DNA from: Alistipes sp.
Lineage (GTDB): Bacteria > Bacteroidota > Bacteroidia > Bacteroidales > Rikenellaceae
Length of the DNA: 64,000 nucleotides
Assembly: GCA_017474235.1 (NCBI GenBank)
Contig: JAFVIB010000018.1
Location: 39,226 to 103,225, forward strand
Direction of reading: 5' to 3'
The notes under the pieces were generated by a model that had not been told where the DNA came from, did no database searches, and saw nothing but the letters and a program-made list of their open reading frames with translations. Below are positions 4,523 to 5,441 of the stretch, piece by piece. How positions within the stretch are numbered: the stretch's first letter is position 1; each line of letters begins with the position of its first letter. The position numbers and the translations under genes were made by a program.

Positions 4523-4922
4523 GGGGGTGACCGGTTTTGACAGCAGGTAGAGTTTGATTGTAAGCACGCCGAGCATTGTGTGGGTTCTCGTTAATCGAAA
4601 CACTCAAACTACAAATGGCAATAATAGCTATGCACTCGCTGCTTAATTTTCTGGGAAAATTGGCTTAATTGATGCACACAAGGTTTGCGTCAACGAGTAT
4701 CCCGAACAGCTGTTCCGCTCTCTAACAGTTTGTTCATACGGGGTATCATCTTTTGAGAGATAGCGCGATATGTGCCTCGGTTATCGTGCGAGATTTAGAG
4801 GCTGGGGCTAAGGTCTTGGCTGTTGTCTGCCGAACTTTAGCAGAAGGATTAAACGACAACTAAGCGTGTAGAAAGCTTTTGGGTTCCTTGTTTGGACGCG
4901 AGTTCGACTCTCGCCACCTCCA
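4523..4922 (+). ncRNA. ssrA: tmRNA (transfer-messenger RNA)
   Basis: Rescues stalled ribosomes by trans-translation. The 5' end GGGGGTG pairs with CACCTCC at the 3' end to form the tRNA-like acceptor stem, with one G-U pair. The T-arm (GTTCGACTC) precedes it, and the discriminator is A4922. The 3' CCA is not encoded, because CTT follows. The tag frame starts at GGC 4617 and reads GNNSYALAA with TAA at 4644-4646. This resembles the GENNYALAA-type tags known from Bacteroidetes. The length, about 400 bases, is normal. The product works with SmpB, which is not in the window. Confidence 0.96.
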
Positions 4923-4929
4923 CTTCAAA

Positions 4930-4954
4930 AAGACGGATTACCTCCGTCTTTTTT
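4930..4954 (+). terminator. ssrA terminator
   Basis: An eight-base stem AAGACGGA/TCCGTCTT with a five-base loop is followed by a run of T, directly behind the tmRNA 3' end. Confidence 0.85.
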
Positions 4955-5171
4955 CGTTGCGGTGGCTCGGTCGCTTAACCGGTGGCGGTGTGGCAGAGTT
5001 TTCTGCGGATTATGGATTTGCAGAGTTGCTGTGCAACTTCTCGTTGTGACAGCATGATATTCTTGAGCAAGCTCATAATATCACACTATCACAAACAAAC
5101 GACTGCGTCGTCTGCAAATCTTAAACCTTGCTCTGCTCAAACCTGCGGCGGTCACTCGACTCTATGCGGTA
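4947..5171 (+). repeat. 225-base direct repeat, copy 1, with cloverleaf-like folding potential
   Basis: It recurs at 5217-5441 with an exact offset of 270 bases and 7 differences in 225 (about 97% identity). It contains many short inverted repeats. A hairpin at 4993-5006 comes first. A closing helix (5015-5024 with 5111-5120, 10 bases perfect) encloses three hairpins at 5024-5038, 5055-5083 and 5099-5111. All seven differences fall outside the stems. A GTG-start frame of 70 codons runs through it, but most differences change the amino acid, so it does not look like a protein gene. The family is not recognised. The first few bases may be only terminator similarity. Confidence 0.85.
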
Positions 5172-5200
5172 GAAACTATATCGAAAGTGGTTAGGAGCAG

Positions 5201-5224
5201 GATGGATTTATTTCCATCTTTTTT
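5201..5224 (+). terminator. Terminator-like hairpin after repeat copy 1
   Basis: GATGGA/TCCATC with a six-base loop and a T6 tail. It has the same shape and position relative to copy 2 as the ssrA terminator has to copy 1, but a different stem sequence. Confidence 0.6.
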
Positions 5225-5441
5225 CGTTGCGGTGGCTCGGTCGCTTAACCGGTGGCGGTGTGGCAGAGTTGTCTGCGGATTATGGATTTGCAGAGTTGCT
5301 ATGCAACTTTTCGTTGTGACAGAATGATATTCTTGAGCAAGCTCATAATATCACTCTATCACAAACAAACGACTGCGTCGTCTGCAAATCTTAAACCTTG
5401 CTCTGCTCAAACCTGCGGCGGTCACTCGACTCTGTACGGTA
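5217..5441 (+). repeat. 225-base direct repeat, copy 2
   Basis: Second copy of the element at 4947-5171. The predicted closing helix is 5285-5294 with 5381-5390, and all stems of copy 1 are kept exactly. It ends about 30 bases before the stop of the small Cys-rich gene on the other strand. No clear terminator follows it. Confidence 0.85.

Follow-up and report, generated by a model that had tools for sequence, protein, structure and literature searches.

The question raised by the locus described here is what kind of sequence stands, in two copies, directly behind the tmRNA gene of an Alistipes genome (1.97 Mb in 50 contigs, 98.9% complete). The locus lies in a stretch of 64,000 nucleotides (the window), in which the tmRNA gene ssrA occupies positions 4523..4923 of the plus strand (identified by ARAGORN, and by Rfam model RF00023 with 157.7 bits). 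The 3′ tail of this gene from the T-loop TTCGA to its end (X, 4903..4923, plus strand) is followed by a terminator hairpin (T, 4927..4954, assigned to neither strand) with an A run before it and a T run after it. Copy 1 continues with X′ (4955..4974, also without a strand), an imperfect reverse complement of X with a local score of 16 compared with 12 or less for any other tail, and with a core (4975..5153, minus strand, which is taken as the folded strand) having outer stem arms at 4981-4998 and 5130-5148; it ends with X″ (5154..5163, plus strand), a short direct copy of the tail (ACTCGACTCT). Within the core, fold and consensus define a cloverleaf (5015..5120, minus strand) in which a perfect 10-bp closing helix (GATTTGCAGA/TCTGCAAATC, 5015-5024/5111-5120) surrounds three hairpins (5025-5037, 5044-5094 and 5100-5110), as a sequence-only reading of the window had described. 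Copy 2 follows a hairpin with a T run (5201..5224, plus strand) and consists of X′ (5225..5244, neither strand), a core (5245..5423, minus strand, cloverleaf 5285-5390) and X″ (5424..5433, plus strand).

The duplicated element directly 3′ of ssrA can be delimited as 4938-5171 and 5208-5441, two copies of 234 nt with 96% identity, and both their spacing of 270 nt and the presence of a T-run hairpin ahead of each (4927-4954 and 5201-5224) agree with the sequence-only reading. The seven differences that it counted between the copies are correct inside the range that it compared, although there are 10 in all over the 234 nt. Its statement that all seven are unpaired did not hold, since 5053 lies opposite 5085 and some of the predicted folds place 5164 and 5166 in stems. 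Positions 5053/5085 change from C/A to A/T between the copies; on the minus strand G-T becomes T-A, a double change that keeps the pair. A DNA search of the same genome returned these two copies only; a search with a 3′ pattern found a third, diverged copy (C7:81494), and the same layout is seen in variants behind Leu(tag), Leu(cag) and Leu(taa). A terminator very similar to T follows the tmRNA gene of a relative that has no element at this position (L148, in genome G003), and T therefore most likely belongs to the RNA gene and not to the element.

The structure is real and conserved. The fold of 4938-5223 has a z value of −4.45 on the plus strand and −6.65 on the minus strand, with none of 200 shuffles as good on either strand. 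Each of 56 de-duplicated cores from the family described below gave a cloverleaf with z < −2 on both strands (40 shuffles each), with means of −7.6 for the minus and −6.3 for the plus strand. Stem-breaking changes in other genomic copies had been named beforehand as the finding that would count against the proposed structure, and the fold is supported in all 56 cores. Stem sequences diverge widely across the groups of cores, with layout and fold kept. Pair-keeping double changes were found at 4 of 31 and 9 of 56 consensus pairs in two groups of close cores, and among 82 copies pair 5 of the outer stem is A-T in 73 and T-A in 7, while pair 6 is G-C in 72 and C-G in 10; covariation was counted in these two groups and the outer stem because MAFFT aligns the hairpins of all the cores poorly. 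A conserved and covarying fold of this kind is a property of RNA genes, although folded DNA would be expected to show the same.

Rfam models at their gathering scores, applied to the window and to sets of 10 and 13 loci, returned only tmRNA/tRNA, two riboswitches and rRNA, and the element matched no family. Its 3′ signature, GCTCTGCTCAAACCTNNNGS, was found with at most one mismatch in 43 of 180 genomes of the genus, where the reversed control pattern gave one match, and the other 137 of the 180 were unmatched. Across the order (198 genomes) there were seven matching genomes including the host; the other six have one match each, with one mismatch, and since the control gave two matches the signature is near control level outside the genus (197 other genomes of the order). 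Four named contigs, labelled Alistipes or Rikenellaceae, contain an exact 22-mer from the element. No match to the element was found in a plasmid collection, and viral contigs gave 0 matches to each of two exact patterns.

Copies with two ends, 82 in number and with cores of 143-181 nt, were read from 87 fetched loci and the window, leaving out 17 places with a 3′ match (0-1 mismatch) and no recognisable 5′ end. The 3′ end of a tRNA or tmRNA gene lies 61-79 nt upstream of the core, on the same strand, in 40 of the 82 (Leu 23, tmRNA 10, Val 3, Ser 2, Asp 1 and Glu 1). Another 19 form a class with the right end GTTAGTAG, and the rest are seven tandem copies, three at contig edges and 13 others, five of which are 307-355 nt downstream of a tRNA. 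At L110 a tRNA on the opposite strand is close to the copy. The pattern search in related genomes shows a dispersed repeat, located mostly behind RNA genes, and not a lone RNA. Members of the GTTAGTAG class mostly follow what is probably a small-RNA gene: a conserved small-RNA-like sequence, GGTTTCTTCATTTATTTAAGTTTGGGTTAGTAG (at most two mismatches), precedes 15 of 21 copies with this right end. No Rfam match to this sequence was found among the 10 loci tested, and upstream of it is a box that resembles a sigma-54 promoter. Loci of this class include L095, L079, L121 and L126, and at L084 GGTTTCTTCATTTATTTAAGTTTGGGTTAGTAG carries an insertion. The position behind ssrA is a single instance of a broader link of the family to tRNA genes, tmRNA genes and a probable small-RNA gene.

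The usual order of parts is X (the 3′ tail of the RNA gene), terminator, X′, cloverleaf core and X″, where X′ is an inverted copy (reverse complement) of the neighbouring tail X and X″ repeats about 8-11 nt of X in direct orientation; the terminator or X′ is lost in some tandem copies. Among the 40 copies behind tRNA and tmRNA genes, no other tail fits X′ as well as that of its own neighbour in 36, the four failures being tmRNA copies L068, L080 and L103 and the Ser copy L105, and the best fit of X″ is to its own tail in 21. The same comparison was made across whole genomes, restricted to genes with at least 250 nt of free DNA downstream. Among 33 RNA genes in the host genome, a downstream copy of the own tail beats all ∼70 other tails in direct orientation in 11 cases and inverted in nine, with 18 of the 33 having one or both, and the tmRNA locus by itself is not significant (0.12 direct, 0.08 inverted). 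Twenty regions each from three other genomes were taken roughly in rank order, counting clusters as one region and skipping those at contig ends. They gave six direct and two inverted cases in G030 (of 39 tRNA hits), one and none in G177 (a 3.4-Mb genome of the same genus, 48 hits) and none of either in G057 (another family, 51 hits). MITEs are also short, gene-less and dispersed and have inverted ends. However, MITEs carry invariant terminal repeats flanked by a duplicated target, an arrangement that is not found here, whereas the ends of the present element vary by site and resemble the target.

Duplication of a sequence starting at the T-loop of a tRNA or tmRNA target is also typical of genomic islands, and the copies could be remnants of ordinary tRNA-targeted islands that have shrunk to their attachment sites. 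According to the Islander paper, islands integrate at the T-loop of tRNA/tmRNA genes and displace the old tail, and their sizes peak at 13.6 and 39.9 kbp (PMC4383910). Related arrays behind other tRNA genes of the host genome do resemble this arrangement, with regenerated and displaced tails that are full or nearly full at the Cys, Lys(ctt) and Gln loci, and with a full displaced tail carrying its own terminator at, for example, Cys (L196) and Lys (L194). Against this, the family of the window has no full displaced tail; its distal copy is about 8-11 nt even in the freshest-looking copies. The element measures ∼200 nt and is without an integrase, for whose gene the cores have no room, and several isotypes are served by one core family. 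We consider an origin from shrunken islands very unlikely for the family of the window.

The sister families that carry these longer tails occur at other tRNA genes of the host genome as units with other heads, ending at a full or nearly full second tail copy rather than the short copy of the window's family. They were found at Gln (two), Lys(ctt) (two different), Cys, Pro, Ser and Val and, less exactly, at Gly(gcc) and Thr, and they have the appearance of units that were integrated at the T-loop and displaced the old tail. Loci L184, L185, L187, L191, L194, L196, L209 and L278 show a second conserved head, GGTTACCTCGG..CCGCACC..GACTGCGGCACTCCCTCGGTGAT-hairpin, which ends at the start of the second tRNA-tail copy and occurs in up to three units in a row. 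In relatives the Cys locus varies, with no unit in G098, G028 and G101, a truncated unit or possible remnant in G003, G006 and G091, one unit in G000, G103 and G194, three in G081 and another head in G124; a search for this locus in G084 gave no match. In genome G030 the second tail is preceded by a third head, GGGTTGCGAGGATA..GTATCCTCGCGAGGGCTTCGCCC (L258, L259, L266, L267, L271 and L277). In the same genome the Lys(ttt) locus has the distal tail of Gln(ttg) and vice versa, an exchange that was considered as cassette mobility and is explained equally well by a crossover between the two loci or by chimeric assembly.

Which strand folds, and as which nucleic acid, was assessed from the mismatches and loops of the 56 de-duplicated cloverleaves. 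Isolated mismatches were counted with G-U pairing forbidden and, expressed as minus-strand bases, were G-A 92, G-T 56, A-A 21, G-G 10, T-T 3, A-C 1 and C-T 1 when the plus strand was folded, and 58, 51, 18, 15, 4, 3 and 2 for the same classes when the minus strand was folded. Read on the plus strand, the first of these sets is dominated by C-T (92) and A-C (56), with one G-T and one A-G. Minus-strand hairpin loops (n=134) include 60 C-RNA-G triloops, 18 CTTG and 20 TTYA loops, compared with two, none and one among 144 plus-strand loops and four, none and two among 766 loops from single-base shuffles. The hairpins with such loops represent 47 distinct ones, and the mismatch and loop counts are not independent, since the sequences, though de-duplicated, are related. 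The computed DNA folding energy is lower on the minus strand in 56 of 56 cloverleaves, so that by mismatches, loops and energy a folded single strand, with one strand favoured, is indicated computationally, as for integron cassettes. CTTG and TTTA loops are favoured in DNA, as GNA triloops are, and CUUG and GNA loops can occur in RNA too. The title of Yoshizawa 1997, cited in PMC6479982, speaks of GNA triloops as extraordinarily stable DNA minihairpins. These counts favour the assignment of the fold to the minus strand with loops of DNA type.

The minus strand would also carry the fold if the element were a gene for a structured non-coding RNA, transcribed from that strand and sharing a bidirectional terminator with the tRNA gene. 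The G-T wobbles of the minus strand and its purine-rich unpaired bases (A 47%, G 26%) are in accord with such a gene, and the first terminator (4927-4954) could work in both directions because it has an A run before it and a T run after it. However, the 134 minus-strand loops include one GNRA and no UNCG loop, with loops of DNA type in their place, the hairpin before copy 2 lacks a T run for the minus direction, and a minus-strand RNA gene leaves unexplained the ends fitted to each neighbour. An RNA gene is therefore unlikely in our judgement. Of the two possibilities offered by the sequence-only reading, an undescribed structured RNA or a structured DNA repeat, the evidence favours the DNA repeat, because the element is dispersed, its ends are fitted to the RNA gene, the fold is that of the minus strand and the loops are of DNA type.

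The pairing capacity of the tail copies could also serve the RNA gene itself, as an insulator or terminator module under selection in which X′ pairs with X against read-through or antisense transcription and the tRNA is released when X″ pairs with X′. X, T and X′ do form one long hairpin in several copies, and behind two tmRNA genes without a core (L154 and L159) the terminators are extended to long, near-perfect palindromes that include the end of the RNA gene. On the other hand, the right-hand reading frame is co-directional in 33 of the 82 copies and convergent in 30 (none in 9, flank too short in 10), so there is no link to convergent genes, and such a module would be missing from the 137 genus genomes unmatched by the 3′ pattern. 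A role of this kind appears to us improbable as the explanation of the family, about as much so as the origin from islands.

Evidence on how the copies spread comes from a single genome and from comparison of all cores. In G156, three cores at two different tRNA-Leu genes and the tmRNA gene align with 94% of the maximal score, but similarity is lost at X′ and immediately beyond X″. The DNA to the right of X″ is unrelated among the three sites, while on the left the sequence corresponds to the RNA gene at each site and X′ is in every case a near-perfect inverted copy of its own tail; the two tRNA-Leu tails equal the Leu(gag) and Leu(cag) tails of the host genome. These near-identical cores could also result from gene conversion. 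For 36 of the 82 copies the closest core is found at the same tail of a different genome, and much of the spread therefore looks vertical; for 26 it is at a different tail (18 in another genome, 8 in the same one), and 20 are undecided. The split suggests inheritance in place together with either transfer between RNA genes or homogenization of cores. Loci of tmRNA genes without a core are known (for example L148, L154, L157 and L159), and a search for a syntenic empty site that has both flanks gave none for the GCTCTGCTCAAACCTNNNGS-signature family of the window among the matches listed, most of which were loci selected because they contain the element. The named records are metagenome assemblies with several copies near contig ends, and chimeric assembly at repeats is possible. 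In G006, one contig (L076) has the left flank of the tmRNA gene, a fragment of the tmRNA end and the element, and another (L152) has a tmRNA match and the feoB-side flank, which may reflect a rearrangement or an assembly effect.

Each copy is probably a non-autonomous mobile DNA element of ∼195 nt, without genes, that stands directly behind the terminator of an RNA gene, is folded as a single strand and has taken its arms from the target. Its mobility is inferred from sequence, fold and position. The minus strand would act as folded single-stranded DNA and be recognized by an enzyme provided in trans, much as an integron integrase recognizes folded attC. Integron cassettes with attC are comparable in having a strand-specific folded site, imperfect helices, free sequence with conserved structure and tandem copies. 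Unlike cassettes, the element is gene-less, lies behind RNA genes and has arms that match the target, and the host has no protein above the integron-integrase cut-off: the best TIGR02249 score in its genome is 146.4 compared with a cut-off of 265. This genome encodes five PF00589 tyrosine recombinases (L213-L217), two of them XerC/XerD-like, and XerD-like L213 passes NF040815, titled 'site-specific tyrosine recombinase/integron integrase' (225.6 compared with 220). The 98.9% complete genome gave 0 hits to Y1 transposase PF01797 and 0 to reverse transcriptase PF00078, the latter pointing away from a retroelement, retron or group II intron. REP/BIME sequences of RAYT (Y1) transposases are short folded extragenic repeats that are used as a single strand. 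The present element differs from them in the missing Y1 match of its genome, in ends fitted to the target and in a larger cloverleaf.

At insertion, the arms of such a mobile element would be made by copying the target tail, so that each copy would be fitted to its site. The simplest route to X′ would be fold-back synthesis through the terminator hairpin, and X″ may be a short copy starting at the T-loop TTCGA. We further propose, tentatively and at somewhat less than an even chance, that these copies represent a new class of self-fitting mobile DNA, in which a gene-less core folds as single-stranded DNA, moves to the ends of non-coding RNA genes and rebuilds its arms for each target, one core serving several isotypes. 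No description of such elements was found in the literature searched, most of which lay outside subscription journals. To our knowledge, a known site-specific element is usually bound to a single target through its enzyme. The occurrence of one core family, with matching ends, at tmRNA genes and at tRNA genes of several isotypes would imply that insertion relies on structure together with copying of the target. If the self-fitting proposal is true, the sister families with other heads would be arrays of tRNA-tail cassettes, elements much smaller than the islands that searches usually target could rebuild the ends of tRNA genes again and again, and a search for the enzyme would become possible in a gut lineage.
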